Below are positions 81-38,391 of a stretch of 38,754 nt of DNA, in pieces. A model generated the notes under the pieces. It saw only the letters and a list, made by a program, of their open reading frames with translations. It was not told the origin of the DNA and ran no database searches. Source of the stretch: Segetibacter sp. (lineage in GTDB: Bacteria; Bacteroidota; Bacteroidia; Chitinophagales; Chitinophagaceae); assembly GCA_025963675.1 (NCBI GenBank), contig JAOQAJ010000338.1, positions 1-38,754 of the forward strand, given 5' to 3'. The position numbers and the translations under genes are program-made. How positions within the stretch are numbered: position 1 is the stretch's first letter; each line of letters starts with the position of its first letter.

Positions 81-101
81 TGTTGCGTCGCACTCTTGTA
101 C
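81..101 (-). repeat. Dispersed repeat copy R1 (GCGACGC variant)
   Basis: On the minus strand this reads GTACAAGAGTGCGACGCAAC, the first copy of a family seen ten times in the window. The tail continues with a TTGAAT-like segment. It points away from copy R2 at 625, so the two bracket a gene-free 560-bp stretch in outward orientation. Confidence 0.8.
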
Positions 102-188
102 TTTTTGTACGTTCTTCCACATACCTCGGCGTAAAAGGAGAAATAGAAAATGAAGGTCGATAATGAAAATGAGTGAATGTGTAAAGTT

Positions 189-213
189 CGTCATTGCGGG
201 GAACGAAGCAATC
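189..213 (+). repeat. Short repeat, CATTGCG...GAAGCAATC family, copy 1
   Basis: The stretch from CATTGCG to GAAGCAATC matches, in inverted orientation and with 3 differences over 22 positions, the stretch at 350-371. Short intergenic repeats of this kind occur in many bacterial genomes. No function is visible here. Confidence 0.6.
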
Positions 214-349
214 CGCTGCACTACAAGCACCGCGTTAATTGGTACGGACACTTCAGGTAGTCGCTTTAAGATTGATTGATGATGTTAGGTAATGGGCGAC
301 GGGGACGAATGAATAAATTACAAATAAGAGCTCGAAAATTCATAGAGCA

Positions 350-371
350 GATTGCTTCGTACCTCGCAATC
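350..371 (-). repeat. Short repeat, CATTGCG...GAAGCAATC family, copy 2
   Basis: Inverted partner of 189-213. Directly after it, the plus strand is open without a stop to 483 and could encode the last ~40 residues of a lost gene (residues such as RQLYKSYGEHTSFFGD). I do not recognise that sequence. Confidence 0.55.
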
Positions 372-567
372 ACAGGGAGTGCGTCAACTGTACAAGAGCT
401 ACGGTGAGCACACAAGTTTTTTTGGGGACACGGACAACATGATTGAGAGGATTATGCAGATGACCCAGGGTAAGAAAACCTGAGCCAACCGGTTTTTGTC
501 TGGAAAAACAGCGTTAGCGAAGTGATATTACCAGGGAAACAATTTTAAAATCGGTTTTTATCAGGTT

Positions 568-587
568 GATCCGTGTCATCCGTGTTC
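568..587 (+). repeat. ATCCGTGT direct-repeat motif
   Basis: Two adjacent ATCCGTGT units (GATCCGTGTCATCCGTGTTC). This motif recurs between genes in many bacteria. Together with the neighbouring repeats it fills the gene-free stretch 1-728, which I otherwise read as non-coding. Confidence 0.4.
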
Positions 588-624
588 TATTGTTTCGAGA
601 AAAAAGATGAGTACACACGGTAGT

Positions 625-644
625 GTACAAGAGTGCGACGCAAG
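625..644 (+). repeat. Dispersed repeat copy R2 (GCGACGC variant)
   Basis: GTACAAGAGTGCGACGCAAG on the plus strand, followed by the family tail AATGCTTAATAG. It lies 85 bp before the truncated CusA reading frame. Confidence 0.8.
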
Positions 645-728
645 AATGCTTAATAGAATTTAAAATGCCAGGATCCAAAAAGTCTCTTAGCAGTAAGGAC
701 AAAAAAGATTTATAAAAAGTTATAGGAT

Positions 729-2675
729 ATGTTCAATTTCAAAAAACGTTCTAATACTAACTCCCCTTTAGAGGCTGGGGGCATGCCTGAAGAGGTTCGC
801 TTAAGTATCATTGAGCGGGCTTGCAAACAGGTTTCAAGAGGCGTCTTCTTTTCAACGATCATTATCATTGCTTCTTTCTTACCTGTCTTTATGCTTACCG
901 GGCAGGAAGGAAAATTGTTTGGTCCGCTGGCTTATACCAAGACGTTTATCCTGATTGTTGATGCAATCCTGGTTATTACCCTGGCACCTGTTCTCATTTC
1001 ATTACTTATGAAAGGCCGGTTTAGAACTGAGAATGAAAATCCCATTAATAGATTTCTTGAAAGAATGTATGAACCGGTTATCAGGGCTTGTATCAAATGG
1101 CGCAAAACAACCATAGGCATCAACATTCTCGCACTATTAGTCAGCATACCATTGGTGCTAAGCCTGGGTAGAGAATTCATGCCGGCATTAGATGAAGGCT
1201 CTATTCTTTTTATGCCTGTGACCCTACCTGATGTATCAAATTCTGAAGCAAAAAGAATATTGCAGGTGCAGGATAAACTGATAAAGTCTGTGCCTGAAGT
1301 AGCCAATGTTTTAGGAAAAGCCGGACGTGCAAATACGGCTACCGACAACTCTCCAATAAGTATGATAGAAACAATCATCATTCTTAAACCTCGTGCCGAA
1401 TGGCGTGCAGGCATTACCAAAGAGGAAATCATAATTGAACTAAACAGCAAGCTTCAAATACCAGGTGTAACAAATGGTTGGACACAGCCAATCATCAACC
1501 GGATCAACATGCTTTCTACCGGCATTCGTACAGATGTTGGAGTGAAAGTATACGGTCAGAATTTAGATACAATAAATGTATTTGCTCAAAAAGTTCGTAA
1601 TGCATTACAAGGTATTGAAGGTGTAAAAGACTTATATGTTGAACCGATCACAGGTGGAAAATATATTGACATCATTATCAAGAGAGATGAAATCGGAAGA
1701 TATGGATTGAGTATAGATGATGTAAACACTCTAATCGAAAGTGCGCTAGGCGGTATGAAGTTGACCACGACAATAGAAGGCCGGCAAAGGTTTTCGGTAA
1801 ATGCAAGATTTGGACAGGAATTTAGAAATAGCATTAGTGCAATAAAGAACCTGCAGGTACAAACAATGAATTTTGGACCGATCCCATTACAGGCAGTTGC
1901 CGACGTTAAGATCACAGAAGGCCCGCCGATGATTAATTCAGAAAATGCTTTGCTTAGGGGAACTGTGTTGTTTAATGTAAGAGACAGAGACCTTGGCGGA
2001 ACAGTAGAAGAAGCAAGAGCAAGTTTAGAGCAGATGATTGGCAAAATGCCTAAAGGATACTTTCTTGAATGGAGTGGTCAATACGAAAACTTGTTGCGAA
2101 GTGAGAAAACGCTGAAGCTGATTCTACCAATCGTGCTCATCATCATTTTTATGTGCATGTACTTTGCTTTTCATTCTGCAAGAGAGGCTTTCTTTAGCCT
2201 TATTTCCATACCCTTTGCTTTGATCGGCGGCGCCTTTATGATTTACTTCTGGGGTGTTAATCTTTCCGTTGCTGTGGCTGTAGGGTTTATCGCTTTATTT
2301 GGGCTGGCAGTAGAAACAGGGATTGTAATGGTGATTTACCTGAATGATGCAATGCAACAATTAGTCACATTAAAAGGAAATTCGAAGGAAACGATTACAA
2401 GAAATGATCTGAAAGAATTTGTGATTGCGGGTGCAGCTAAAAGGCTACGACCTAAGGTGATGACAGTTTGTGTTTCCCTGTTTGCATTGATACCCATTCT
2501 ATGGAGCACAGGTGTTGGAAGTGATGTGATGAAACCAATTGTACTGCCAATGGTAGGCGGCGTGCTCACTTCGGCAACCCATATCTTATTAGTAACCCCA
2601 CTGATTTTTCTGATGACAAAAGAATACGAACTAAGAAAGTTTGGAAAAATCGATGTGCTTGAAGTAAAACATTAA
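729..2675 (+). CDS. cusA: CusA-type Cu(I)/Ag(I) RND efflux pump, 5'-truncated
   Basis: C-terminal 60 percent of a heavy-metal RND inner-membrane pump that drives metal ions out by proton exchange. Homology starts near residue 19 and corresponds to E. coli CusA from about residue 430. The first four membrane helices, the first half of the porter region and the proton-relay helix are missing. The signature GQEGKLFGPLAYTKT is at 58-72. Three methionines at residues 162, 212 and 261 keep the exact 50/49 spacing of CusA Met573, Met623 and Met672, which argues for Cu(I)/Ag(I) rather than CzcA-type Zn/Co/Cd export. The C-terminal helices are intact. The next gene starts 2 bases after the stop. The frame begins in repeat DNA (761-782) and nothing in 1-728 encodes the lost part, so the product should be non-functional as a pump unless complemented by another copy. 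Confidence 0.85.
   Translation: MFNFKKRSNTNSPLEAGGMPEEVRLSIIERACKQVSRGVFFSTIIIIASFLPVFMLTGQEGKLFGPLAYTKTFILIVDAILVITLAPVLISLLMKGRFRTENENPINRFLERMYEPVIRACIKWRKTTIGINILALLVSIPLVLSLGREFMPALDEGSILFMPVTLPDVSNSEAKRILQVQDKLIKSVPEVANVLGKAGRANTATDNSPISMIETIIILKPRAEWRAGITKEEIIIELNSKLQIPGVTNGWTQPIINRINMLSTGIRTDVGVKVYGQNLDTINVFAQKVRNALQGIEGVKDLYVEPITGGKYIDIIIKRDEIGRYGLSIDDVNTLIESALGGMKLTTTIEGRQRFSVNARFGQEFRNSISAIKNLQVQTMNFGPIPLQAVADVKITEGPPMINSENALLRGTVLFNVRDRDLGGTVEEARASLEQMIGKMPKGYFLEWSGQYENLLRSEKTLKLILPIVLIIIFMCMYFAFHSAREAFFSLISIPFALIGGAFMIYFWGVNLSVAVAVGFIALFGLAVETGIVMVIYLNDAMQQLVTLKGNSKETITRNDLKEFVIAGAAKRLRPKVMTVCVSLFALIPILWSTGVGSDVMKPIVLPMVGGVLTSATHILLVTPLIFLMTKEYELRKFGKIDVLEVKH
761..782 (+). repeat. 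CTAAAGGG-type repeat inside the start of the truncated CusA frame
   Basis: The DNA CTCCCCTTTAGAGGCTGGGG encodes the non-homologous residues SPLEAGG at the start of the CusA frame. A related sequence in inverted orientation (CCGGCCCTAAAGGGAGAAG, 3920-3938) makes up the last residues of the downstream cusC-like gene. The homologous CusA sequence starts right after this repeat, so it may mark the rearrangement junction. Confidence 0.4.
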
Positions 2676-2677
2676 TC

Positions 2678-3955
2678 ATGAAGAAATTAATAATAGCCTT
2701 TTTAGTACTGTTTTCCTGTAATCTGATAAAAGCCCAAAGCAGGATGTCTTTGCAGGAAATTCTGCAAACGATAGACACAGCCAATCCAACTTCAAAAATG
2801 TTTGCAGCGCAAATTCGTGCGTCAGACGAAGCAGCAAAGGGCGTCAGAAGCTGGATGCCAACAGATTTTAGCACTGGTTTGTGGATGACTCCATACAACG
2901 TAAAAATGTGGCAGAAGGGAGAACATGGAGAGAATGGCATGGGGCAATATATGCTCTCCATACAGCAGATGTTTCCAAACAAAAAGAAGCAGGATGCCGA
3001 GGCTGCTTACATGGAAGGAATGTCTTCGGTAGATAAAGAAAGGGTGCGGTATGAGTTGAACCTTTTGTATGCTGACGCAAAAAAAAATTATTATGAATGG
3101 ATCGTAGTAGAAAAGAAGCTGAAAATTGTAAATGAGAATGAAAAGGTGCTAGCCTTTATGATCAAAGATGCTGAGATCAGGTATAGAAATGGGCTGGATA
3201 AACTAAGTGCCTACTACAAAGCAAAGGCTGAATTAGGGAAGATGGTCAACATGAAATTGATGTTAGAGAACGAGATACACCACAAACGGCTCAGGCTAAA
3301 TACTTTGATGAACCGCAATAAGATGGTAGAATTTGAGATTGATTCTTTATACACCATTAAAGAGTATGCAGAGAGCTCTTTTGATACAACAAACCTCGCT
3401 GCAAGAAGTGATGTACGGGCAATAGATAGAGAAATTGAACTAACATTTTTGCAACAAAATTCAGAAAGAGCTAAAACGAAACCAGAGTTTGGTGCACGCT
3501 TCGATCACATGTTTGGTTTTGGTGGATTGCCAATGCAATACAGTTTGATGGGTATGGCAAGAATACCGATTGGCAGGGCAAACCGAATGTCAAAGGCAAC
3601 TGTTGAAAGTTTAAAATGGAAGTCAGAAGCGCTTAGCCAACAAAGGCAAATGGTTTTAAATGAAGCATCAGGTATGGCCGTCGGAATTGGTAATGAAGTA
3701 GAATCAAAGAAAAGACAGGTGAAGCTTTTTGAAGAAAACATTATACCCGCATTACGCAAAAATTACCAGGTGATGCAATTAGGTTACCAGCAAAATACAG
3801 AGCAGTTGTTTACGCTTTTTGACGCCTGGGATACATTAAATAAAACACAGCTCGAATACCTCGACCAATTGCAACAATTATTGAACATGCAGGTGGAGCT
3901 GGAAAGAATATTGGAAGCTCCGGCCCTAAAGGGAGAAGAGCGGCCCCGGCCGTAA
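2678..3955 (+). CDS. TolC/CusC-like outer-membrane efflux protein
   Basis: 425 aa with a signal peptide (residues 1-19, MKKLIIAFLVLFSCNLIKA). The rest is mostly long amphipathic helices with heptad-like spacing and a repeat of the helix-strand-helix pattern (about 25-230 and 240-415), as in TolC/OEP proteins. It would form the outer-membrane duct of the Cus-type tripartite pump. It starts 2 bases after cusA, so translational coupling is likely. The last dozen residues (PALKGEERPRP) are encoded by a CTAAAGGG-type repeat, so the natural C-terminus may have been replaced. The family is usually 400-480 aa, so the length is normal. Confidence 0.85.
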   Translation: MKKLIIAFLVLFSCNLIKAQSRMSLQEILQTIDTANPTSKMFAAQIRASDEAAKGVRSWMPTDFSTGLWMTPYNVKMWQKGEHGENGMGQYMLSIQQMFPNKKKQDAEAAYMEGMSSVDKERVRYELNLLYADAKKNYYEWIVVEKKLKIVNENEKVLAFMIKDAEIRYRNGLDKLSAYYKAKAELGKMVNMKLMLENEIHHKRLRLNTLMNRNKMVEFEIDSLYTIKEYAESSFDTTNLAARSDVRAIDREIELTFLQQNSERAKTKPEFGARFDHMFGFGGLPMQYSLMGMARIPIGRANRMSKATVESLKWKSEALSQQRQMVLNEASGMAVGIGNEVESKKRQVKLFEENIIPALRKNYQVMQLGYQQNTEQLFTLFDAWDTLNKTQLEYLDQLQQLLNMQVELERILEAPALKGEERPRP

Positions 3956-3981
3956 TGGGAGGAGAGAGAACCTGGACTCTT

Positions 3982-4050
3982 AGCTCCGTAGGAGCTACCT
4001 GTTTGTAGCCAAAATGTAATTATAGAATTAAAGGCTTCGTAGGTGCCACC
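3982..4050 (+). repeat. Two GCTCCGTAGGAGC-type repeat units
   Basis: AGCTCCGTAGGAGCTACC (3982-3999) contains the perfect odd-centred palindrome AGCTCC-GTA-GGAGCT. A degenerate second unit, GGCTTCGTAGGTGCCACC, lies 51 bp downstream (4033-4050). They fill the gap between the efflux duct and the first adaptor gene, next to repeat R3. Confidence 0.55.
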
Positions 4051-4094
4051 CAAAAAAACATGGGCTTTGTTCATAAAAGAACCAAAAGATGAAC

Positions 4095-4113
4095 GTACTG
4101 CGACGCAACGATG
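4095..4113 (+). repeat. Dispersed repeat copy R3 (internally shortened)
   Basis: GTACTGCGACGCAACGATG, then the family tail ATTAAT. Compared with the other copies, the AAGAG segment after GTAC is missing. The ATG in its tail opens the reading frame of the next gene, but this start belongs to the repeat; the internal ATG at 4159 fits a signal peptide better. Confidence 0.7.
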
Positions 4114-4158
4114 ATTAATCAGGGAACAAAACCTTGGATCAAAAAAAGATTTAAAAAC

Positions 4159-5421
4159 ATGAGGTTATTTTTAAACTATAAAACAGCTTTTTTCATTGGC
4201 ATTCTGATAATAACCCTATTGGTTACATCGTCATGCAAGCAAAAAAAGCATGAACATGTAACAACCGAAGTTGCTGAAAATAAGCCAGCTTATACCTGTC
4301 CTATGCATCCGGAAATTGTAAAAGATAAGCCTGGCGATTGCCCTATCTGCGGAATGAACCTGGTAGCGCAAGTAGTAAATGCGCAGAAAGTAAATAGCAT
4401 AGAACTGGAAGATCTGTTGAAGCCAACCAATGAATTTGTCATTACTTCCGTGCCCGTAACTACTATACAAAATCAGCATGTGGATATACCAATCGAGGCG
4501 ATAGGTAGCATAGAAAACGATACAAAACAAACCGGTGCAATCTCAGCAAGAGTAGCAGGACGAATAGAACGATTGTACGTGCGTTACAGGTACCAGATGA
4601 TAGAGCCCGGACAAAAAATCATGGAGATTTACAGTCCTGAAGTTGCTACTTCTCAACAAAATTTGTTGTTTCTTTTAAAAAATGATCCTTCAAATACATC
4701 GCTGATACAAGCCGCAAAACAAAGGCTTTTGTTTTTTGGAATGAGCAACCAACAATTAAACGAACTCATACGAACAAGAAAAGCATCGTTAACAATTTCA
4801 GTTTTTTCAACAGTGATGGGTCATGTACATGAAGCAGGGCAGGAAACAATGAACCAACCGGGAAGTATGGCAGCGACGACATCCACAACAGCACCATTAA
4901 GCATCAGGGAAGGAATGTATGTGACAGCAGGACAGCGAATTTTTTCTATCACAGATCCTTATAAAGCCAGGGCAATCTTAAATATTTTTCCCGAGAACCA
5001 GCACATGGTTAAGGTTGGAAATACAGTGAAGCTTACACCTGAGGCGATGCCACATAAAGCATTCAGGGCTAAAATAAATTTTATTGAACCGTTTTTTCGC
5101 GAAGGAAATAAAACACTTACGGCTCGTGTAACTTTCGATAACTCAGAACTACAAATCCCGATCGGTAGCCAGGTGCGTGCAGATATTTTAGGACGGAGTG
5201 CAGAGGCAAATTGGCTGCCAAAAGACGCAGTGCTTTCGCTTGGGATTAACCAGGTGGCTTTTGTAAAAACCAGCGGTGCATTTGTCGCAAGGAAAATTCA
5301 AACTGGTATGATTCAGCAAAACCTTGTGCAGGTGATCGGTGGATTATCAGTGAAAGATACAGTTGCTGCAAATGCCCAATACTTAACGGACAGTGAGAGT
5401 TTTGTAAAAGTAAAACAGTAA
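4159..5421 (+). CDS. CusB-like membrane-fusion lipoprotein with heavy-metal-binding domain (first copy)
   Basis: Periplasmic adaptor of an RND metal efflux pump. With the start at 4159 the protein is 420 aa, beginning MRLFLNYKTAFFIG, with a lipobox ending in Cys26 (VTSSC). The frame is open to an ATG at 4111, but that lies inside repeat R3 and would place 16 odd residues before the signal peptide. A heavy-metal-binding domain follows at about 45-69, with the pattern YTCPMHP...PGDCPICGMNL (two CxxC/CPMH metal sites). Then come the lipoyl/barrel-sandwich and beta-barrel regions of membrane-fusion proteins. A His/Met-rich insert (VHEAGQETMNQPGSM) sits mid-protein. It lies 2 bases upstream of a second adaptor gene; two adaptors in one operon is uncommon. 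Confidence 0.88.
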   Translation: MRLFLNYKTAFFIGILIITLLVTSSCKQKKHEHVTTEVAENKPAYTCPMHPEIVKDKPGDCPICGMNLVAQVVNAQKVNSIELEDLLKPTNEFVITSVPVTTIQNQHVDIPIEAIGSIENDTKQTGAISARVAGRIERLYVRYRYQMIEPGQKIMEIYSPEVATSQQNLLFLLKNDPSNTSLIQAAKQRLLFFGMSNQQLNELIRTRKASLTISVFSTVMGHVHEAGQETMNQPGSMAATTSTTAPLSIREGMYVTAGQRIFSITDPYKARAILNIFPENQHMVKVGNTVKLTPEAMPHKAFRAKINFIEPFFREGNKTLTARVTFDNSELQIPIGSQVRADILGRSAEANWLPKDAVLSLGINQVAFVKTSGAFVARKIQTGMIQQNLVQVIGGLSVKDTVAANAQYLTDSESFVKVKQ

Positions 5422-5423
5422 GT

Positions 5424-6743
5424 ATGCGATCATTCTTTTTTTATACCAACGTAGGTTTTTCAATGAAGCAACTGTTGCGACGCTCCGTTGTATCAGTTGT
5501 AACAATAGCATCGGGGAAGTATGCCGGAAGCCTTACAAAAGGAGCAAAATTGTTGCTTTTAATAATAGCTTCAACACTTTGTATAAGCATTTTATCGTGC
5601 AAAAATAAAAAAGTGGTAAAGCAGGAAGCGAATACTTTTTACACCTGCTCAATGCATCCTCAAATAATGGAACCACATGAAGGCAAATGCCCGGTTTGTG
5701 GTATGGACTTAATTCCGGTAACAAAAAATAATACACCTGCAACTGATGAAATCAAATTGAGTGATCAGCAAATACAACTAGGAAATATTCATGTCGATAC
5801 GATAGGCAAAGGGATAATGGGAAATGAAACAGTACTGAACGCAACATTAAATTTCGACCAACAAAAATTAACTTCGGTAAGTGCCAGGTTGATGGGACGG
5901 ATTGAAAAATTATATTTTAAAAACATCGGGGATTACATTGCAAAAGGTGCTGCATTATTAGATGTATACAGTGAAGAATTAAACAATGCAAAACAAGAAT
6001 ATTTACTTGCATTAGAACGACGTACTGTCTTAGATAATTCCCTTATAAATTTCGACCAGGTCATTCAAAGTGCAAAGACAAAACTCTTGCTATGGGGAAT
6101 GACTGAAGGCCAGGTAAATACACTTGCCAGAACTAAAAAGGCTTCACCAACGACAACTGTTTTTAGCAAAGAGAGTGGTTACATAACAGCACTCAATGTA
6201 CAGGAAGGAGATTACATCAGCGAAGGCGCAACTGTGGTTGAGTTAGCTAATTTATCTACCCTTTGGGCTGAGGCACAGGTGTACACAAGTCAGATGGCCC
6301 AGTTAAATGCTTCAGGTATGGTTACCGTACAAATTCCCGATCTGCAGGGGAAAGAATTGAGGGGTAAGGTAGAATTTGTGAACCCTGAAATCAATGCGGA
6401 TAAAAGACTAAGTCTCATCAGGGTTCCAATCTCAAATCAAAACAATCAGTTGAAACCTGGGATGTCGGCGTATGTTATCATAAAAGGTCAGCAATCAAAT
6501 GCATTATCGCTGCCGATAGATGCTGTGCTAAGAAATGGCAATAGTGCAACGGTTTGGGTGCAAACAGGAACCAATACTTTTAAAAATAAAATGGTGACCG
6601 TTGGTATGGAAAGTAACGATCGCATCGAAATAACGGGCGGCTTGAATGATGGCGACGCTGTTGTTACTTCAGGAGCATATTTGATAAACAGCGAGTATAT
6701 TTTCAAGAAGGGATCATCACCGGTAGCAGGAATGAAGATGTAA
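5424..6743 (+). CDS. CusB-like membrane-fusion lipoprotein with heavy-metal-binding domain (second copy)
   Basis: 439 aa adaptor of the same kind as its upstream neighbour but clearly diverged. The lipobox is SILSC (Cys59 from this start; Cys46 if the ATG at 5463 is used, which gives a more usual signal peptide). A heavy-metal-binding domain at about 73-98 carries YTCSMHP...GKCPVCGMDLIPV. The adaptor body ends with the typical C-terminal GLNDGDAVVTSGAYLINSE segment. It likely delivers Cu(I)/Ag(I) to, or stabilises, the RND pump. It is the last gene of the operon; a strong hairpin terminator follows 36 bp after the stop. Confidence 0.88.
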   Translation: MRSFFFYTNVGFSMKQLLRRSVVSVVTIASGKYAGSLTKGAKLLLLIIASTLCISILSCKNKKVVKQEANTFYTCSMHPQIMEPHEGKCPVCGMDLIPVTKNNTPATDEIKLSDQQIQLGNIHVDTIGKGIMGNETVLNATLNFDQQKLTSVSARLMGRIEKLYFKNIGDYIAKGAALLDVYSEELNNAKQEYLLALERRTVLDNSLINFDQVIQSAKTKLLLWGMTEGQVNTLARTKKASPTTTVFSKESGYITALNVQEGDYISEGATVVELANLSTLWAEAQVYTSQMAQLNASGMVTVQIPDLQGKELRGKVEFVNPEINADKRLSLIRVPISNQNNQLKPGMSAYVIIKGQQSNALSLPIDAVLRNGNSATVWVQTGTNTFKNKMVTVGMESNDRIEITGGLNDGDAVVTSGAYLINSEYIFKKGSSPVAGMKM

Positions 6744-12445: not shown

Positions 12446-12488
12446 TGTTTGATTTTTTAACCCGCCATCTCTCTTTGATGGAACCTCC

Positions 12489-12508
12489 GTTGCGTCGCAC
12501 TCTTGAAC
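12489..12508 (-). repeat. Dispersed repeat copy R4 (GCGACGC variant)
   Basis: Minus-strand GTTCAAGAGTGCGACGCAAC (one change, GTTC for GTAC). It lies in the 440-bp gap between the DUF5777 terminator and the CHRD gene. It faces R3 and brackets 4.1-12.5 kb with it. Apart from this copy and the promoter at 12755 I see nothing else in that gap. Confidence 0.75.
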
Positions 12509-12754
12509 ATTTAATCTTTGACCTGGCAAGCCTATGCGGCCAAGTGAAATCATGGATTCTATGAGACGTCAGTAGAAATAATTAAGCCCCTTTCGATGCC
12601 TCACTGGCAACTCGCGACTTAATGTCTAACTCAATGCTTCTGTTTCGTTCGCCTTTTCAACCACGGTAAACAACTCCAAAACAGCAGAAAAGACTATGTC
12701 TTTCTAATGGCCTACGGCTATATTAGTAAACTCGCTTATTAAATTTTGAAATAG

Positions 12755-12822: not shown

Positions 12823-14913
12823 ATGAAACAAATTTTTACTCTAAGCCTGCTTCTTGTGCTGACAATTACAGCACAGGCACAAATCCGCTATTTAAAAGGC
12901 GTGTTCAAAGGTGCCAATGAATCAACTCCAAATGCTTCTACTGCAGGAGGCGTTGTTATCATAACATACAATACCGCTACAAACTTCTTAAAGCTGGTAG
13001 GAAATTATCGCAGTCTTTCAAATACAATAAGCGGTTCTCATATTCATGGACCTGGTGCGCCGGGAGCCGATGCAGATGTGCTTTGGAACCTTACAAATAC
13101 GGGTGGAACAAGTGGCGGGTTAACCGGAACGGCCACCCTTACAGATGCACAAGAAGTTGATTTGCTCAATGGTAACATGTATGCAAACGTTCATAGCACC
13201 GGTACGTATGAGGCAGGTGAAATCAGGGCGCAGATTACTCCAATTGCGCAGGATAAAGCTGTCATATTATCCGGAAGGTTACAGGCTGCGCAACAAACAC
13301 CGCCAGCCAACTCTCTGGCCACCGGCACAACCACAACATTATTAGATACATCAACGCATACTCTATGGATAACTGCTGTTTATTCCGGTCTGACAGCTAA
13401 TGCTAATAATGCTCACATTCATGTTGGTGCCCCGGGGGTAGCCGGAGGGGTGATTGTTTTTGTGAAATATGTTCCCCTCACCGCTGGTTCAATTGATACT
13501 TCCCGTGTTATCACTGTTCAAAATGAAACAGATATTTTGAATGGAAATACTTACCTGAATGTTCATACGGTCGGCACTTATGCGGCCGGTGAAATCAGGG
13601 CGCAGCTTTTACCAAACACCCAGTTAAGATATTTTGCCAATTCCCTGTCTGGTGCCAATGAAAGGCCGACTTCTAACGGGTCTACTGCAAGAGGTACTGT
13701 AATCGTAAGATACAATACTGACACTAATTTGTTTGAGTTGTGGGGCGACTATCAAAACTTAAATAATGCCATAAGTGGCTCGCATATTCACGGCCCCGCA
13801 GATGCAAATTCGTTTGCAGGTGTTCTTTTTAACCTTACTAACACTGGCGGAACTACAGGTACGCTTTCAGTAAAACGTACCCTCACCGAAGCGGAAGAAT
13901 CTGCTTTGTTTAACGGGCTTTGGTATGCAAATGTTCATAGCACGGATACTTATGCGGCCGGAGAAATCAGGGGACAATTACTGCCAACTTCAAGTGGAGA
14001 AACGCAATACTTAACCGACACTTTAGAAGGTAGGCAATCTGTTCCGACAAATACAACAACGGCAGGTAAAGGCCGTGGGGTCGCTCTATTGGATAAGGTG
14101 ACACGAAATATTTTTGTGACAGGTTATTTTACCGGCCTCGGAAGTAATATCGCCGATGCCCATATTCACCGCGGAACATCTGCAGAAAACGGCCCCGTAG
14201 CCTTTCAATTGCTATTTAGCGGAACAACCGCCGGCAGTTTAACCGGTGCAGGAACCGTCTCTCAAACATTGGTCGATTCTATGATCGCGGGTCTTACCTA
14301 TATTAATATTCATTCAGTTAATAATGGCTCCGGTGAAATAAGAGGACAACTTGGAGACCTCGTTTTACCTGTGAAACTCGAATACTTCAATGGGTATAAA
14401 GATCAAAACAAGGTGGTAGTAACCTGGCAGGCTGCACAGGAAGTGAACGTAAAGCATTATGAAGTGGAGCAGCAAAATGAATCGGGTGAATGGATTAAAA
14501 AAGGCACCGTAGCTGCCACTGGCGCGAGTTCAGTAATGAAATACAGGTTTAGCGATATTCCATTAAGCGGAAAAAAAGACTACGTATTGTATAGATTGAA
14601 AACAGTTGATCTTAATGGAAACGTAAGCTACTCTTCAATCATTAAAATCATTTATACTAAGTCGCAGGTGGCGCTAACCATACTGCAAAACCCTGTTATT
14701 AATGGTAGCCTGGCACTTACTGTAACCGGTCTGATAAACAATCAAAAGGCAGAAATATCTGTTATTGACTTTTCAGGAAGGCTGCTGAAAAAAGGCGTTA
14801 TATCAACTATGTCAAATAACATCATTGATATAAGCAGACTTTCAAGTGGTATGTATAGAGTAATGGTCAAGCTGAATGACAGTGTTTTACAGGAAAGCTT
14901 TATTAAACAATAA
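12823..14913 (+). CDS. Secreted four-repeat CHRD-domain protein with C-terminal sorting domain
   Basis: 696 aa, signal peptide 1-19. Four CHRD repeats (about 22-145, 148-267, 269-388 and 393-507), each with the motifs SGSHIHGP or NAHIHVG, a Gly/Thr-rich stretch, NxNVHS and GEIRxQL. The His residues lie at matching places in each repeat. A region beginning LPVKLEYFNGYKDQNKVVVTW follows, then a type IX C-terminal sorting domain from about 610 to the end. CHRD domains were first defined in animal chordin; their bacterial role is unknown. It is monocistronic, with its own candidate ECF promoter and a strong terminator. Confidence 0.88.
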   Translation: MKQIFTLSLLLVLTITAQAQIRYLKGVFKGANESTPNASTAGGVVIITYNTATNFLKLVGNYRSLSNTISGSHIHGPGAPGADADVLWNLTNTGGTSGGLTGTATLTDAQEVDLLNGNMYANVHSTGTYEAGEIRAQITPIAQDKAVILSGRLQAAQQTPPANSLATGTTTTLLDTSTHTLWITAVYSGLTANANNAHIHVGAPGVAGGVIVFVKYVPLTAGSIDTSRVITVQNETDILNGNTYLNVHTVGTYAAGEIRAQLLPNTQLRYFANSLSGANERPTSNGSTARGTVIVRYNTDTNLFELWGDYQNLNNAISGSHIHGPADANSFAGVLFNLTNTGGTTGTLSVKRTLTEAEESALFNGLWYANVHSTDTYAAGEIRGQLLPTSSGETQYLTDTLEGRQSVPTNTTTAGKGRGVALLDKVTRNIFVTGYFTGLGSNIADAHIHRGTSAENGPVAFQLLFSGTTAGSLTGAGTVSQTLVDSMIAGLTYINIHSVNNGSGEIRGQLGDLVLPVKLEYFNGYKDQNKVVVTWQAAQEVNVKHYEVEQQNESGEWIKKGTVAATGASSVMKYRFSDIPLSGKKDYVLYRLKTVDLNGNVSYSSIIKIIYTKSQVALTILQNPVINGSLALTVTGLINNQKAEISVIDFSGRLLKKGVISTMSNNIIDISRLSSGMYRVMVKLNDSVLQESFIKQ

Positions 14914-14969: not shown

Positions 14970-15013
14970 GCTGGATATTGAATAATATAAAAACTGCTGA
15001 TTAAAAAACTAAA

Positions 15014-15042
15014 AGTAAAAGTGAGTGACACAACAAAAGACG
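15014..15042 (+). repeat. Dispersed repeat copy R5 (GTGACAC variant)
   Basis: GTAAAAGTGAGTGACACAAC followed by AAAAGACGC. The whole 29 bases match copy R9 with a single difference. It lies between the CHRD terminator and the 3' end of the frameshifted DUF1232 gene. Confidence 0.8.
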
Positions 15043-15124
15043 CTTTCAAAATTAAAAGCTGGGTAACAAATAAAATAGTAAAATAAAGTTTTAAGTACGT
15101 TTATTCAAAGTAAAATAGTAACCC

Positions 15125-26419: not shown

Positions 26420-26473
26420 CAGAGATTAATGAGTTTGAAAATTTTTGGGCCGCGCTGTCATGCTACTATGATA

Positions 26474-26499
26474 CATTGTTGCGTCGCACACTTTTACAG
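26474..26499 (-). repeat. Dispersed repeat copy R6 (GCGACGC variant)
   Basis: Minus-strand GTAAAAGTGTGCGACGCAAC with tail AATGTATCATAGTAG. It lies between the cyclase fusion and the HMA-AraC gene. Confidence 0.75.
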
Positions 26500-26569
26500 T
26501 TTTTTCTTTATTCATCAAAATACAACTACCGTAAGTTAGGTTGGAAGATAAGAGTTTCAGCCAGAGAGA

Positions 26570-27505
26570 TCAATAATATTTCTCTCCAAACAAATACACG
26601 CTTTGCTCACCATCAATCCCTTTCAACTCTATGTTTTGCCTCTCATATTCCTTCGCAGTAGGCCAATACCCGGCTGCGGTTTCCGAGACGATAAAACTGT
26701 TATTTAAGGCCTTCGTTGCTGCCTGCAATCTTGATGCAATGTTTACCGGAAGTCCCATTGCCGTTAGGTTATTATTCATGCCTACGCCTGCATTTCCTAC
26801 AACTACTTTACCGGTATGTATACCTATACCGAGATGAAACGAAACATTAAAAAAAGGCTGTAGATATTGTTCATTAAAATCTGCTACTTCAGCATGTATA
26901 GCAAATCCTGCCGTGATAGCCGCGTTTGCCGCAGAGGTTATATCAGTCTTTAAGCCGAAGACAGCATAAAAACCATCGCCTGCCGTGTCTATTATGTTGC
27001 CTTGATGTTTTGCAATAGCTTTTTTGAAAATGCGAAAAAGTCTTCGAATAATGTGCATCACGTCAAACGGTAATGACGATGCAACAAAGGGTGTAAAATT
27101 TCTGATATCCAAAAAGAACAGCGCAAGTTCTCTCTCTTCTCCAAGTTCCTGGTCTTCATCTTCCTCATCTGCTTTGCCAACATATACAAATACATCCGTT
27201 TGGTCGCGGATAACTCTATGAACCCGAACTGATCCGTTCTGAAGGGTTGTTTGACATGCAAGTCTTGTATTAAATGTGCCCGGAATTCTCATTCTCAGGG
27301 CTTTCTCTTTTTCATTCGGAGGACTAAGATTCTCTAAACCTTCCGCTACCAGTACCCGGCAGGTCGAACACTGCGCCATACCACGACATGCATGAAAATG
27401 AGGAATTCCTGCTTGTAATGAAGCACCAAGAATAGTTTGCCCCTCTTTAATTGGAACTACCTTTTCGCCAATAAACTCAATGCTACATGTTTTTTCTAAA
27501 TCCAT
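26570..27505 (-). CDS. 2Fe-2S ferredoxin fused to a class III adenylate/guanylate cyclase domain
   Basis: 311 aa. Residues 1-100 are a plant-type ferredoxin fold with cluster ligands Cys40, Cys46, Cys49 (ACRGMAQCSTC) and Cys84. Residues ~125-310 are a class III nucleotide cyclase: metal-binding Asp133 (FLDIRNFT) and Asp177 (AGDGFYAVFG), and the transition-state Asn255/Arg259 (NIASR) are present, so it should be active as a dimer. An acidic linker (EEDEDQELGEE) joins the two. A redox-controlled cAMP or cGMP signal is the natural reading. A Crp/Fnr-type gene starts at the right end of the window, but a link is unproven. Confidence 0.85.
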   Translation of the reverse strand: MDLEKTCSIEFIGEKVVPIKEGQTILGASLQAGIPHFHACRGMAQCSTCRVLVAEGLENLSPPNEKEKALRMRIPGTFNTRLACQTTLQNGSVRVHRVIRDQTDVFVYVGKADEEDEDQELGEERELALFFLDIRNFTPFVASSLPFDVMHIIRRLFRIFKKAIAKHQGNIIDTAGDGFYAVFGLKTDITSAANAAITAGFAIHAEVADFNEQYLQPFFNVSFHLGIGIHTGKVVVGNAGVGMNNNLTAMGLPVNIASRLQAATKALNNSFIVSETAAGYWPTAKEYERQNIELKGIDGEQSVYLFGEKYY

Positions 27506-28826: not shown

Positions 28827-28884
28827 ATGAGCTAAACTAACGGAGGCTAATAAAACACGGCTTCTGCCGAGTAAAACAAAAAAA

Positions 28885-28916
28885 GTACAAGTGTGCGACG
28901 CAACGGGGTTTAATAG
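28885..28916 (+). repeat. Dispersed repeat copy R7 (GCGACGC variant)
   Basis: GTACAAGTGTGCGACGCAAC followed by GGGGTTTAATAG. It shares the AAGTGTGC form with R6 and the TTTAATAG tail with R2. Confidence 0.8.
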
Positions 28917-29121
28917 TAGACATTAGCCCGGCTCAAAAAAAAACTCATAATCACTGCACACAAAAACTAAACGATATTGGTGAATACCGGTTGCGAGGTT
29001 TATTAATGGCAGTTCGTCGCATTCCCGCAAGACAACCGGAATGGTTGTGTGGTTTGGGAAAATACAGAGTAAGCGTTTGGATATTGGCGCGGATACCAAC
29101 ATCAGCGTAAATACCGGAGCA

Positions 29122-30978: not shown

Positions 30979-30991
30979 TCTGATAATTTAG

Positions 30992-32229: not shown

Positions 32230-32249
32230 CCTGTGCCGTTTCGCACAGG
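32230..32249 (+). terminator. Possible hairpin after the DUF1259 gene
   Basis: CCTGTGC / GCACAGG with a 6-base loop, 100 bp after the stop and without an immediate T-run. In the 400-bp gap 32131-32528 I see no other clear feature; a plus-strand frame at 32332-32523 is weak. Confidence 0.3.
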
Positions 32250-32558
32250 TGTCACACCCTTTTGCGTTTGTATCTATATTCATTAACAAGGCACAGTAAC
32301 GGTTAGGCGACATATAATAGATGTACTAGCCTTGAACAGGTTCATGCCTTTTGCACCTCTTGTAAAATTTAGTAAGATTCATTTTAGTGTTCACGACAGC
32401 AAAAGGTATCCAGATAATCAGGGAAGTAATGACCTCCGGTTTATTTGCAGGGCATTAGTAGCGCCAGCTTGTTTCCCTAAAATAATATCTTCAATAGAAA
32501 AGTTATTTGAAAAGGAATACTAACTTTCATGACTGCTTATAAAAAGGCACTATACTTC

Positions 32559-33716: not shown

Positions 33717-35261
33717 ATGAAAATCGCATGCTTTCTTGCCTTGTTTGTTTTTTTCAGCCCCTCTTTTAGTCAAACTAAGAGCATTGGCATTTTTGATAAT
33801 GCTGCAGATATTGGGAAGCCAAAAAATGCAGGATTTTCAAGGTATGATGAAAATACACAAACATACTTTCTCAAAGGGTCCGGTTATAACATCTGGTTTA
33901 ACCGGGATGAGTTTCAATACCTATATAAAAAAATTGGTGGAAATTTTATTCTTACAGGCAATTTTGAATTCACCGGGGGTGCGGGTAATAGTCACCGTAA
34001 GATTGGGTGGATGATAAGAGAATCTTCAGATGAAGGGGCTGCAAGCGTTAACGCAGTTGTACATGGAGATGGGCTTACCGTACTACAATGGAGACCATTG
34101 AGAGGCGCTTATATGAGAGATCCGGAAGATGAGGTTTTTTATGCCAAAAAAAGCGTTTTTCGTACTATTCAGTTAGAACGTACGGGAAATAAGGTAACTA
34201 TGCGGGTGGCTAATTGGGGCGAACCACTACAGGAAGTTGCTGGCCAGGAAATGCCGAACTTAAAAGATTCTGTTCTTGTCGGCTTGTTTATTTCGTCTCA
34301 CGACTCTGATAAAATTGAAGAAGCAAAAGTTTGGAATGTACGCCTGGATAAACCTGTTCCTGAAACCTATCATCCAAATCCCCAGGTTAAGTTACCACGT
34401 GTAGCTGGAGTGGTTGGCTGCCGGCTGGAAACAATGGATGTATTTACCGGAAACAGAAACGTTATAAGAGAATCGGCAACCAGATTCGAAGCACCGAATT
34501 GGATGCCTGATGGCAAAAGGCTTTTGTATAATGAAGGCGGATCACTCTATACAATTGCTGTTGAAGGCGGAACACCTGAAAAATTAAATACAGGAACTGC
34601 TGACAGAATAAACAATGATCACGGTATTTCGTTTAACGGAAAAATGCTTGCTATAAGTCATTCAACACCAGGGCCGGGTGGTGGATCAACAGTTTATGTG
34701 TTGCCTCTTGCGGGTGGAACGCCAAAGCAGGTTACAGAACAAACCCCTTCGTATTGGCATGGCTGGGCACCAAACGGAAAGGACGTAGTATTGGTAGGAA
34801 TGAGAAACGGAAGCAAGATTTATAACCTTTATAAAGTCGATATAAACACGCTTGCTGAAACGGCACTAACAGCAAATACTACCGGTCATGTGGACGGACC
34901 TGAATACTCTCCTGACGGTAGATACATCTATTATAACGCTAACCCGACAGGAACAATGCAAATCTGGCGAATGAAGCCCGATGGAACTGCTAAAGAACAA
35001 CTCACCTTTGATGAATATCATAGCTGGTTCCCTCATATTTCTCCGGATGGAAAATGGATGACCATGATCTCCTTCCCGACAGATATTGAACCTAATTCAC
35101 ATCCCTCTTATAAAAAGGTCATGCTAAGATTAATGCCTGTTAGTGGTGGAGCTCCGAAAGTAATAGCATATCTCTATGGTGGCCAGGGAAGTCTTAATGT
35201 AAACTCATGGTCTCCTGATAGCAGGCATATTGCCTTTGTCTCTAACTCTGAAAAAAAGTAG
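33717..35261 (+). CDS. Exported TolB-like (PD40 repeat) beta-propeller protein with N-terminal DUF1349-like domain
   Basis: 514 aa, signal peptide 1-18. Residues 20-215 resemble a concanavalin-like DUF1349 domain (GNFILTGNFEFTGGAGNSHR... TIQLERTGNKVTMRV). From about 230 to the end are PD40/TolB repeats (APNWMPDGKRLLYNEGG, GWAPNGKDVVLVG, PEYSPDGRYIYYNA, PHISPDGKWMTMIS, WSPDSRHIAFVS). Binding rather than catalytic; possibly sugar-related. Likely co-transcribed with the amidohydrolase. Confidence 0.85.
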   Translation: MKIACFLALFVFFSPSFSQTKSIGIFDNAADIGKPKNAGFSRYDENTQTYFLKGSGYNIWFNRDEFQYLYKKIGGNFILTGNFEFTGGAGNSHRKIGWMIRESSDEGAASVNAVVHGDGLTVLQWRPLRGAYMRDPEDEVFYAKKSVFRTIQLERTGNKVTMRVANWGEPLQEVAGQEMPNLKDSVLVGLFISSHDSDKIEEAKVWNVRLDKPVPETYHPNPQVKLPRVAGVVGCRLETMDVFTGNRNVIRESATRFEAPNWMPDGKRLLYNEGGSLYTIAVEGGTPEKLNTGTADRINNDHGISFNGKMLAISHSTPGPGGGSTVYVLPLAGGTPKQVTEQTPSYWHGWAPNGKDVVLVGMRNGSKIYNLYKVDINTLAETALTANTTGHVDGPEYSPDGRYIYYNANPTGTMQIWRMKPDGTAKEQLTFDEYHSWFPHISPDGKWMTMISFPTDIEPNSHPSYKKVMLRLMPVSGGAPKVIAYLYGGQGSLNVNSWSPDSRHIAFVSNSEKK

Positions 35262-35308
35262 TTCTATCATAACCGTGTAACACATTGACCGTTTTAGACA
35301 AATTAGCG

Positions 35309-35379
35309 AGGTTTTTTGTCGTTTAAATAATTTGGCCTTTTCGCAAAAAGAGGTGCTTTTTTGTTTAAACGAAAAACCT
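35309..35379 (+). terminator. Long imperfect hairpin downstream of the TolB-like gene
   Basis: AGGTTTTT (bulge TGT) CGTTTAAA pairs with TTTAAACG AAAAACCT: 16 base pairs around a 36-base loop that itself holds a smaller CCTTTT/AAAAGAGG stem. It starts 48 bp after the stop. It may end transcription or be a repeat. Confidence 0.4.
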
Positions 35380-35431
35380 GCAGTTTCAGATAATATTTAC
35401 CACGCTGAAAAAAGATGAGGCTGGAGATTTT

Positions 35432-35460
35432 GTACAAGTGAGTGACACAACGATGTTGAA
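35432..35460 (+). repeat. Dispersed repeat copy R8 (GTGACAC variant)
   Basis: GTACAAGTGAGTGACACAAC with tail GATGTTGAA. It faces R9 (same variant) across the dienelactone hydrolase gene. Confidence 0.82.
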
Positions 35461-35647
35461 GAGAGTTCTACGGTTTGTCTCCAACTGTTTACCGAAAAGT
35501 TTATGAATTCAAACCCTTTTTACTTAACGTTATAAAAATATTGCCTGGAAGACTTTTACGAAAAGTGCGGCAATTTGTAAAAGACAGAATAAGATCTTTT
35601 TTCAAATATAGAATTGTCTTATTGTAAACCTAATACTCCAATCTAAC

Positions 35648-36535
35648 ATGAACGAAATTAAGAAAGAAGACATACAACAGGAAGTGTTTGACCTTTATGA
35701 CGACTATGCGCACAACCGGGTCAACAGGCGCGAGTTTGTGCAAAAGCTATCCACCTACGCGGTAGGAGGCGTTACCGTGGCGTCCCTTATGAGTTTTTTG
35801 ATGCCGGATTATAAAGGCGCGATTAAGATCAAAGCAGATGATGCACGGTTAAAATCAGAATACATCAATTATCCGTCTCCGAAGGGCGCAGGTACGATCA
35901 AAGCCTTACTGTCGATGCCGGTGGATAACAAAAAGAAACTGGGTGGAATTGTAGTTGTTCATGAAAACCGTGGGTTAAATCCCCATATCGAAGACGTTGC
36001 ACGAAGAGCTGCCCTTGCGGGATTTGTTTCTCTTGCTCCTGATGCCTTAACTCCATTAGGCGGCTATCCGGGAAATGATGACCAGGGTCGGGAAATGCAA
36101 AGTAAGCGGGACAGAAATGAAATGTCAGAAGATTTTATAGCAGCATACGAATACCTCAAAAACCACAAAGACTGTAACGGTAAAGTTGGTGTCGTAGGGT
36201 TTTGCTTTGGCGGCGGTATAGCAAATATGATGGCAGTAAGAATTCCCGGTTTAGCGGCGGCAGTTCCGTTTTATGGAGGCCAGCCAGCGAAAGAAGATGT
36301 TCCGAAAATAAAGGCTCCCTTGCTCTTGCATTACGCCGCGCTTGATACACGAGTCAACGAAGGCTGGCCTGCATATGAAGCCGCTCTGAAAGAGAATGGC
36401 AAAGACTATACTGCTTACATGTATCCTAATGTAAACCATGGATTTCACAACGATACAACACCTCGCTATGACAAAGCTGCGGCAGAACTTGCATGGAGCC
36501 GTACCATTGATTTTTTCAAAGCTAAATTGACCTGA
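35648..36535 (+). CDS. Dienelactone hydrolase family protein
   Basis: 295 aa alpha/beta hydrolase. Catalytic triad visible: Cys186 in GFCFGG, Asp233 (AALDTRV) and His264 (NVNHGFHN), with Glu106 in VVHENRG as in DLH enzymes. An N-terminal [20 protein letters not shown] segment with a hydrophobic stretch (36-52) looks like a Tat-type signal or anchor after a 26-residue lead. Cleaves cyclic esters (dienelactones) or related compounds; true substrate unknown. It stands alone between inverted repeats R8 and R9. Confidence 0.88.
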
Positions 36536-36612
36536 TAAGGCCGGGATGGATTACAGATTCTAATGAAGAATTTAGAGTAAATCTTTCCGGTCTTCCGGCA
36601 TTACTTTCCATG

Positions 36613-36641
36613 GCGTCTTTTGTTGTGTCACTCACTTGTAC
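36613..36641 (-). repeat. Dispersed repeat copy R9 (GTGACAC variant)
   Basis: Minus-strand GTACAAGTGAGTGACACAAC followed by AAAAGACGC; 28 of 29 bases equal R5. Inverted relative to R8. Confidence 0.82.
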
Positions 36642-36680
36642 TCACTGATCTGTTGTCATCTTCTGCTTTAAAATTAAAAT

Positions 36681-36720
36681 TGCTAACGTCACTTTCATTT
36701 GTCTTAAAGTCACGTTAGCA
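36681..36720. terminator. Bidirectional hairpin
   Basis: TGCTAACGTCACTTT and AAAGTCACGTTAGCA pair along 15 positions with mismatches at the central C/G positions and a 10-base loop. A-rich on the left, CTCTTTTA on the right; it may serve the HsdR-like remnant or the hydrolase gene. Confidence 0.5.
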
Positions 36721-36778
36721 CTCTTTTATTTGCCGGTTTTGGTAAAATCCCTACTGCACATAGCCTTTTATCAAAGAT

Positions 36779-36988
36779 TTATTCACTCCGCAAACTCTTC
36801 ACCAGATTGGCAATTGCAGCTTTGACCGGCTGGAAGCCAACGGTTATGGCTTCTACAAGTCTATTAGTAATAATGTGGCTAACAGGGTCTAAATCTGGTT
36901 TTATAACGCTACCGTTTAAATATGCATAACCTAACTCCTGCATTAATTCTATAGCAGGTAGTTCGGAACAGATGTACCCGGTATGTAC
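36779..36988 (-). pseudogene. Remnant resembling the N-terminus of a type I restriction subunit HsdR
   Basis: A minus-strand open stretch of ~69 codons with no start codon: ELPAIELMQELGYAYLNGSV, then IKPDLDPVSHIITNRLVEAI. HsdR proteins begin with a similar E-x-PAIEL-x-x-LGY block followed by a leading RL-x-x-AI segment. The body of the gene is missing and the frame ends in unrelated residues. Fic genes are often found inside type I restriction loci, and one follows here, so this may be a decayed locus. Confidence 0.4.
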
Positions 36989-37106
36989 TCATTCTATATA
37001 TTAGTGTATTACATGGTATGTCAAATGCAATACCCCTCTATGTTAATTGTTTCTATTTAGTTTATTATCTTTAATCCCTTATTTTACAGCGTTTGCCACA
37101 GTTGTG

Positions 37107-37160
37107 TGTTAATTGTGGAAACCATTGCTGTTAATTGTTGAAAAAGCCGTTGTTAAATGT
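37107..37160 (+). promoter_or_regulatory. 22-bp direct repeats over the Fic start (iteron-like operator)
   Basis: TGTTAATTGT at 37107 and 37129 and TGTTAAATGT at 37151, exactly 22 bp apart (two helical turns), the last overlapping the ATG at 37157. Another TGTTAATTGT lies at 37041, 66 bp (three times 22) before the first. This pattern suits cooperative binding of a regulator, possibly the Fic protein itself through its C-terminal winged helix. Confidence 0.6.
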
Positions 37161-38314
37161 CTACAAATCGATTCAATCATTTCGACTTACAACTAACTGA
37201 ACCTTCATTTGGGTCTTCGCTGACTGATTTAATCATCGAGCTCGACTATTTGCGCAAAAAGCCGCTCGCCGGTACAACCCATCCAAAAGTATTTTTTCAG
37301 CTTAAGCATTTGTTTCACACTCTGGAAAGTGTCGGTTCTGCCAGAATTGAAGGTAATAATACCACTATTGCAGAGTATATTGAAACAAAACTGGAAGAAA
37401 AAAGGTCACTGCCGTTAGGAATAATGGAGATAAGGAACATAGAGGAGGCAATGACTTTTATAGATGAGAATATCAAGCAACATCCTATTAATCGGATTTT
37501 TGTTAGCGAACTACATAGAATGGTAGTTGAAGGGTTAGTGCCCCCACCAGATGGGGAAGGAGACCATACACCGGGCGTTTATAGAACAAAGAACGTGACA
37601 ATAGCAACATCTACCCATAAGCCTCACGAAGCAGTTACAGTGGATGAATACATGGATGAACTATTCAGCTTTATTAACGCTAATGACAGCCCTAAATACG
37701 ACCTTTTAAAAGCTGCTATTGCACACCACCGGTTTGTTTGGGTACACCCTTTTGGCAATGGTAATGGCAGAACAGTCCGCTTGTTTACTTATGCAATGCT
37801 GGTAAAGCTTGGCTTTAATGTCGACGTTGGACGAATACTTAATCCTACCGCCGTTTTTTGCAGTAATAGGGATGAATACTACCGGCATTTAGCAGCAGCA
37901 GATACCGGTACTGAGGAAGGAATGCTGGAATGGTGCGAATATGTTTTAAAAGGATTGAAAGAGGAGATTGAAAAGATTGACAGGCTACTTGATTATACTT
38001 TTTTGAAGAAAGAGATATTGCTACCTGCCTTAACCCATTCTACCGAAAGAAAGTACATAACCGAATTAGAAGGCAAGGTGTTAAAGCGTGTTGTTGAAAA
38101 GCAAGTGATACAGGCAGGTGATGTTAAAGACATTTTTGAAGGGAAACTAAATGCAGAAGTAAGCAGGCAGTTAAGAAAACTTATAGAGCGCAAAATGCTT
38201 GTACCTGAACAAGAGGGAACAAGAAAATACATTATTCGCTTTGATAATAATTACCTTTTACGAAGTGTAATTAAGATGTTGGGTGATAAGGGATTTTTGC
38301 CCGTAAAAGATTAG
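37157..38314 (+). CDS. Fic-family AMP-transferase with N-terminal inhibitory helix and C-terminal winged helix
   Basis: 385 aa. Fic motif H197-PFGNGNGRTVR, fully conserved, so it can transfer AMP (or another nucleotide part) to protein hydroxyls. The inhibitory helix is N-terminal (S61-ARIE65-G66, matching (S/T)xxxE(G/N)), making it a class II Fic enzyme, self-inhibited by Glu65. Residues ~310-375 (VLKRVVEKQVIQAGDVKDIF... RKLIERKMLVPEQEG) are a winged helix typical of Fic proteins next to restriction systems. Starts within a 22-bp repeat array. Confidence 0.9.
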   Translation: MSTNRFNHFDLQLTEPSFGSSLTDLIIELDYLRKKPLAGTTHPKVFFQLKHLFHTLESVGSARIEGNNTTIAEYIETKLEEKRSLPLGIMEIRNIEEAMTFIDENIKQHPINRIFVSELHRMVVEGLVPPPDGEGDHTPGVYRTKNVTIATSTHKPHEAVTVDEYMDELFSFINANDSPKYDLLKAAIAHHRFVWVHPFGNGNGRTVRLFTYAMLVKLGFNVDVGRILNPTAVFCSNRDEYYRHLAAADTGTEEGMLEWCEYVLKGLKEEIEKIDRLLDYTFLKKEILLPALTHSTERKYITELEGKVLKRVVEKQVIQAGDVKDIFEGKLNAEVSRQLRKLIERKMLVPEQEGTRKYIIRFDNNYLLRSVIKMLGDKGFLPVKD

Positions 38315-38365
38315 CCAGATAAAGAGTAAGATTTTTCCGGAACCGTCTGTAGGAATGCTAATACA

Positions 38366-38391
38366 GCTGTTGAGCCGCCGCACTCTTGTAC
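38366..38391 (-). repeat. Dispersed repeat copy R10 (divergent GCGGCGGCTC variant)
   Basis: Minus-strand GTACAAGAGTGCGGCGGCTC followed by AACAG. The 5' half equals R1/R2; the core is altered, but GAG...CTC arms remain complementary. Confidence 0.65.

Follow-up and report, generated by a model that had tools for sequence, protein, structure and literature searches.

What is the short sequence that recurs between the genes of JAOQAJ010000338.1, a 38,754-nt contig of Segetibacter sp. (hereafter the window, meaning this whole stretch of DNA), and does it belong to a known class of bacterial repeats? Our analysis indicates that it is the centre of an ~80-nt element dispersed between genes in one bacterial family, and that this element probably represents a family of non-autonomous interspersed elements of the repetitive extragenic palindrome (REP) and bacterial interspersed mosaic element (BIME) kind. 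A preliminary description had listed ten copies in the window, all outside genes. The 20-nt core consensus is GTACAAGWGWGYGACRCAAC, and in a window search that allowed 3 mismatches eight of the ten match it with 0 or 1 mismatch each (shuffling expectation 0.01), while the other two, listed at 4095 and 38366, are broken copies. The core reads GCG-A-CGC in five of the intact copies (C-type) and, as had been noted, GTG-A-CAC in three (T-type; 15015, 35432 and 36622). A profile search added two fragments, and several coordinates were corrected. The copies in the window, with their profile E-values and core mismatches, are as follows.

43–121, minus strand: full element, C-type core at 82–101; E 3.7e-15, 0 mismatches
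622–681, plus strand: element, C-type core at 625–644; E 1.6e-12, 1 mismatch
4099–4146, plus strand: broken copy, right part, with a core that lacks its left bases; E 1e-5
5436–5479, minus strand: fragment, right part, new to the list; E 6e-4
12452–12517, minus strand: element, C-type core at 12489–12508; E 7.8e-10, 1 mismatch
14994–15072, plus strand: full element, T-type core at 15015–15034; E 4.5e-11, 1 mismatch
26439–26518, minus strand: full element, C-type core at 26478–26497; E 1e-12, 1 mismatch
28864–28941, plus strand: full element, C-type core at 28885–28904; E 6.5e-14, 0 mismatches
32249–32282, minus strand: doubtful fragment, left part, new to the list; E 0.017
35431–35484, plus strand: element, T-type core at 35432–35451; E 1.6e-10, 0 mismatches
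36595–36659, minus strand: element, T-type core at 36622–36641; E 2.7e-8, 0 mismatches
38379–38412, minus strand: broken copy, left part; E 8.5e-4

The genome from which the window comes (a 4.93-Mb draft in 444 contigs) holds 770 cores at up to 3 mismatches, against 3 for the reversed pattern, so that the copy number is far above chance. Nine congeners carry 7 to 1405 copies at the same threshold. With up to 2 mismatches, 225 of 394 genomes of the family have at least one match and 169 have none. The highest counts are 2404 (genome G238), 2358 (G172, a single 5.5-Mb contig) and 2237 (G180), with 0 for the control in all three. In a sample of the class, 22 of 395 genomes had a match, seven of those 22 belonging to the family, and outside the family 16 matches in 15 genomes compare with 19 for the reversed control. 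The repeat is restricted to one bacterial family, with outsiders at control level. The 34 loci in named records that match an extended pattern come from Chitinophagaceae (Segetibacter, Foetidibacter, Flavisolibacter and metagenome-assembled genomes, MAGs) or from MAGs labelled just Bacteroidetes, which suggests that the family in question is Chitinophagaceae. One query each of phage and plasmid records gave no match. Contaminated contigs are possible among the genomes searched. In G661, a genome outside the family that is 71% complete, two head-to-head matches lie 117 nt apart (contig C129, 4238–4374), perhaps as a result of contamination or transfer.

Analysis of a position profile of 89 copies in sampled stretches showed that conservation covers about −22 to +57 relative to the core and then ends, which places the 20-mer in the middle of an ~80-nt element. 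The core is preceded by a G-Y-T-G-A-A-like head, which includes an A-rich run, and followed by a tail closing in a GCCGG-n-n-CAAAA-like sequence. The core is near-invariant, and the flanks are degenerate yet recognisable; the profile used in our searches was trained on core-found copies having the central GAC, and elements without GAC are invisible to it. An impression by eye that the element comprises three tandem modules including the core did not hold (head versus core 5.53, reversed 5.78), and the head resembles module 3 weakly (7.54 of 15, versus 6.80 for shuffled heads).

The preliminary description had proposed that two symmetric core positions, 12 and 16, change together, that at least two subfamilies exist, and that a dimeric protein reads both half-sites. 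In 465 aligned copies, collected with a pattern that permitted all four combinations, these positions read CG in 320, TA in 140, TG in 4 and CA in 1. They form a standard pair in 464 copies, as no other column pair does, and are clearly not independent. Position 10, however, changes with them without pairing, giving the haplotypes TCG (C-type) in 312 and ATA (T-type) in 138 of the 465 copies. The two subfamilies are thus real, and the covariation is essentially a two-haplotype difference, which makes it weaker evidence for half-site reading than had been supposed. A third core form, GCGAGCGTGGCAAC, was found in G005 and at an orthologous site in G152.

The position of the copies relative to genes was examined with mechanically called open reading frames (ORFs), the multi-genome and G172 counts using crude ORFs of at least 100 aa. 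In the window, the claim that no copy lies inside a gene holds for the eight intact copies, but two ORFs, 4111–5421 and 5424–6743, share their first codons with the broken copy at 4099 and the fragment at 5436, respectively. In a sample of the same genome, 20 copies outside crude ORFs lie between two genes co-directional with the element and 22 between two genes of the opposite direction, 8 have divergent neighbours and 7 convergent ones; eight further copies lie in short ORFs of 80–124 aa that are possibly spurious. Across 11 genomes the element showed no strand preference: both flanking genes were plus (++) in 79 cases and minus (−−) in 80 relative to it, convergent in 42 and divergent in 26, and 23 of 292 element midpoints fall in crude ORFs. 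For G172 we sampled 62 stretches covering 1.24 of 5.53 Mb and containing 558 units, 41 of which have their core midpoint in an ORF. Copies avoid genes in all three sets. In G172 the element occupies 357 of the 557 intergenic regions of at least 100 bp (co-directional 249 of 369, convergent 64 of 89, divergent 44 of 99), and of the 269 units that face a stop codon no more than 90 nt from the end of the core, 111 have it at 36–43 nt, which is the edge of the tail (any open frame of at least 100 aa being counted). Single units showed no significant preference for sense over antisense (C-type 61 versus 77, P 0.20; T-type 16 versus 29, P 0.07). A replichore strand bias hinted at among the G013 matches listed did not hold up: a further comparison was mixed, and G172 gave 98 plus versus 100 minus.

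Close neighbours are oriented in a regular way. Among units at most 200 nt apart, core to core, 182 of 187 pairs stand head to head, 119 of 121 in G172 and 63 of 66 in the other sets (the latter count leaves aside the small samples of G001 and G034 and certain loci that overlap or are duplicated). Spacers in G172 are no shorter than 24 nt, a length found in 14 pairs, and the next shortest measure 30–32 nt (16 pairs). Of the 112 typed G172 pairs (7 of the 119 include an untyped unit and were omitted), 80 combine a T- with a C-type unit, 30 are CC and 2 are TT; the heterotypic expectation is 52.8, and none of 20000 shuffles reached the observed number. In heterotypic pairs between co-directional genes, the C-type unit comes before the T-type unit along transcription in 38 of 57 cases (38 versus 19, P 0.016). 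Inverted duplication as the origin of the pairs was rejected, since the two tails of a pair resemble each other no more closely (0.578, 39 pairs) than random tails do (0.590). For 110 of the 112 single units of the first G172 sample, no convincing second inverted copy was found; one weak opposite-strand hit (E 0.14) lay on the head side and none on the tail side. Some longer spacers are degenerate short-period repeats (GTCGAC-, AGCT- or TTCAC-like) nested between both units, as seen in G172 pairs and in G180 (L208, 8246–8423 and 11640–11846).

The mismatch spectrum of the core is bimodal, with copies at 0–4 mismatches and then background. Partial matches show no excess in genes and a small excess outside them (for example 12 versus 3 at 6 mismatches in G000), which fits decayed copies. 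The bimodal spectrum and the lack of a genic excess favour spread by copying over accumulation of point mutations. The element is also present in 26 stretches of viral contigs (IMG/VR), some with several copies and often between a stop and the next start; called ORFs extend into some of these copies, and in two of the stretches the match is confined to the core. The viral origin of these contigs is a prediction, and L179 at least, with its lpxB-like gene, may be host DNA; one contig encodes a tail tube protein and a terminase. Relatives of the viral contigs were either near-identical or at most 63% identical. A 20-kb block of G033 was compared with congeners at four loci, where some copies are common to G152 or G220. 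Where the element is absent, the intergenic region is altered too, and shared copies differ by whole segments (the core at loci A and D, the tail module at locus B).

The preliminary description had counted a one-base loop in the core and judged an RNA hairpin unlikely. The dyad may instead be a mini-hairpin with a GAC triloop, because in several copies a longer hairpin occupies the loop position: the three central bases are replaced or extended, and the left GTACAAGWGWGY-like and right GCAAC/G-like parts are kept. Eight of ten such candidates were judged real (two in G033, two in G180, one in G152, two in one MAG and one in a viral contig). The remaining candidates, L276 and L216, were judged chance or ordinary, and two further loop-extended copies were spotted by eye (L208 and L283). 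A longer-stem G172 variant forms the GAC triloop when folded. One 26-nt hairpin insert is found at the core loop both in the G180 chromosome (L251) and in a viral contig (L196).

As for the mechanism, a copying or transposition process acting in trans would spread the copies. Its machinery would recognise the core, either folded into a tiny hairpin of single-stranded DNA (TGC-GAC-GCA or GT-GAC-AC) or in the form of a dyad, and would contact the flanks more weakly. Insertions in genes would be lost and copies behind stop codons would survive, and the latter may be retained for helping to define gene ends. We consider it possible, though rather doubtful, that these repeats form a new class of mobile gene-end elements, shared by host chromosomes and phages, with a T-type unit at one end and a C-type unit at the other. 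A non-RAYT enzyme (RAYT, REP-associated tyrosine transposase) would recognise the mini-hairpins and place the elements behind stop codons, so that they fill most intergenic regions of some genomes.

Several results weigh against the main reading as REP/BIME-like interspersed elements. The flanks differ among copies far more than would be expected had a single sequence been copied recently, and no clean empty site or target duplication was found in the syntenic block with its four loci. When weak profile hits are included (E up to 10, at most 250 nt), only 51 of 77 pairs are head to head, and outside G172 heterotypic pairs number 19 of 56 versus 16.3 expected (P 0.23), in sets that are mostly of one type. 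The 80 head-to-head intervals of 300–3500 bp (127 ORFs) contain no recurring transposase-like gene; what recurs is one phage's genes and four two-member clusters that are not transposase-like by eye. Regarding the hairpin, isolated plain T and C cores gave no GAC hairpin in minimum free energy folding, two of five folded extended copies (G180 and L162) skip the proposed stem, no loop extension judged real accompanies the 482 plain G172 cores (two candidates look like chance), and the alignments of 465 copies show no further covarying helix. A dimer reading the dyad in double-stranded DNA is thus also possible.

The strongest alternative is that the repeat is a functional gene-end site, the dyad being bound by a protein of the host (nucleoid, gyrase- or termination-related). 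Selection would then keep the copies as boundaries of 3' ends, and dispersal would be secondary. We regard this as a serious possibility, although it is clearly the less probable one. Copies abutting stop codons, their frequent placement between stop and start in compact viral contigs, and the high occupancy of G172 intergenic regions all speak for it, as does the orthologous copy of G033 and G152 at locus B, which keeps the core with one difference and has a different tail module. Against it, the range of copy numbers within one genus and the 169 family genomes that have no match indicate that such a site is not essential. In addition, the core at locus A differs more than its flanks, and the information in the core would be far above what a protein needs for ~1000 sites.

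Interspersed elements of the REP/BIME kind are the more probable explanation. According to the passages of PMC3733652 and PMC2817692 considered here, REPs are located downstream of genes, are found preferentially in convergent and co-directional regions and form inverted pairs (BIMEs), and the RAYT gene of E. coli is bounded by Y and Z2 units. Compared with these accounts of REPs and BIMEs (Y and Z2 of E. coli, and those of Pseudomonas and Stenotrophomonas), the present element is likewise high-copy, intergenic and mostly downstream of genes, prefers the same region types, and has inverted close units and two unit types, which are combined in G172. It is extragenic and exceeds 100 copies in the genome of the window (770), as REPs do, and its maximum of 2404 lies above those REP counts of Table 1 in PMC2817692 with which we compared it. 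The closely spaced units are inverted as in BIMEs, less uniformly once weak hits are counted, and the BIME combination of Y with Z may have its counterpart in the heterotypic pairs of G172, which are not significantly in excess in the other sets.

The differences are structural. The element is ~80 nt long and forms a short core hairpin at most, whereas a REP is a long palindrome. A 20–40 bp imperfect palindrome whose stem is substantial was not seen: the 465 copies show a single covarying pair, and plain cores fold weakly and into other structures. The 89-copy profile has no GTAG/CGTC tag at the dyad or element ends. The preliminary description had also pointed to a RAYT/TnpA-REP protein as a possible partner. 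Such genes are common (PF01797 matches in 44 of 59 relatives and 9 of 10 copy-rich genomes) but are linked to the element neither by copy number nor by flanking copies: G033 has 0 matches and 325 copies, G008 has 7 and 7, and G172 has 0 and 2358. None of 33 Y1_Tnp loci, a part of all PF01797 matches, has the element on both its sides; one unit lies nearby at five of the 33, one of the five being weak. RAYT as the mobiliser is therefore not supported in the genome of the window, the 59 relatives, the 10 copy-rich genomes or the 33 loci. In present-day G172 the mobilising protein is not a PF01797 Y1 transposase, and in few-copy genomes no obvious autonomous gene adjoining a copy was seen by eye at 11 loci. 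By the tests run, the element is REP/BIME-like in behaviour and not a member of that class.

These results also make it improbable that the repeat is a RAYT-mobilised REP of the Bacteroidetes TnpAREP subclass 2.6, whose transposase would since have been lost in some genomes. The 'atypical' repeats of this subclass, as outlined in part of PMC6006769, likewise occur in Bacteroidetes, have unusual structures flanking the transposase genes and have copies elsewhere in the genome, and the distribution, inverted pairs and two unit types of our element resemble REPs and BIMEs as described above. The frequency of PF01797 matches in copy-rich genomes would also agree with this origin. By that description, however, the subclass 2.6 repeats flank their own transposase gene, and the present element does not at the 33 loci; the copy-rich genomes that lack PF01797 and the missing tag point the same way.

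Other short repeats were compared by description only. BOX of Streptococcus pneumoniae is short, present in many copies near genes, and modular. The Correia elements of Neisseria, treated as miniature inverted-repeat transposable elements in the part of PMC2817692 concerned, are also short, with many copies near genes, as here. Unlike both, most sampled units of the present element are single, with no second inverted copy. Terminal inverted repeats and target-site duplications, the marks of such miniature elements, were looked for in the single units of G172 and in the syntenic block, with the results given above. No description of this repeat was found among the open-access papers that our searches listed, judged by titles and the beginnings of abstracts.

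A DNA-uptake or self-recognition sequence that accumulates through biased uptake, as in Haemophilus or Neisseria, seems quite unlikely. Its density, equal strand use, unrelated flanks between copies and presence in viral contigs would be expected of such a sequence. However, matches are rare in genes (14 of 187 at 0–4 mismatches in the G172 sample with crude ORFs), coding DNA has no excess of partial matches at 5–8 mismatches, and long hairpins are tolerated within the core; the large pool of near matches, in genes as well, that marks uptake sequences was not found. Least probable of all is a cis-acting RNA read in neighbouring transcripts, for although the loop-extended variants resemble RNA stem-loop variation and the C-before-T order between co-directional genes is a weak polarity, single units lack a significant sense or antisense preference, no helix beyond one pair covaries, and no copy has a gathering-score Rfam match. 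The Rfam search gave no gathering-level match in the window and only sub-threshold matches at copies in 8 loci. Elsewhere, a queA RNA (RF03093, E 1.3e-11) was detected in G033 (L036, 2692–2751).

The window contains other features besides the element. A different short palindromic repeat, GTCATTGCGGGGAACGAAGCAATC-like, forms an inverted pair at 190–217 and 346–373 that is 86% complementary and may resemble CGTC-type REPs. The ORF at 12823–14913 encodes four CHRD domains and a Por secretion C-terminal sorting domain, with parts repeated every 372 nt, and the ORF at 26570–27505 on the minus strand fuses a 2Fe-2S (Fer2) domain to an adenylate/guanylate cyclase domain. Additionally, a Fic/DOC family protein is encoded at 37157–38314, flanked by a T-type copy and a broken copy.

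In summary, the data support a dispersed intergenic family, as first described. If the element is indeed an interspersed repeat of this kind, its density (2358 copies in a 5.5-Mb genome) would exceed the published REP copy numbers with which we compared it, with no visible link to RAYT, the transposase to which REPs are ascribed. The range of 7 to 1405 copies within one genus would offer a natural setting in which to find the mobilising machine and to test whether gene-end repeats affect transcription.

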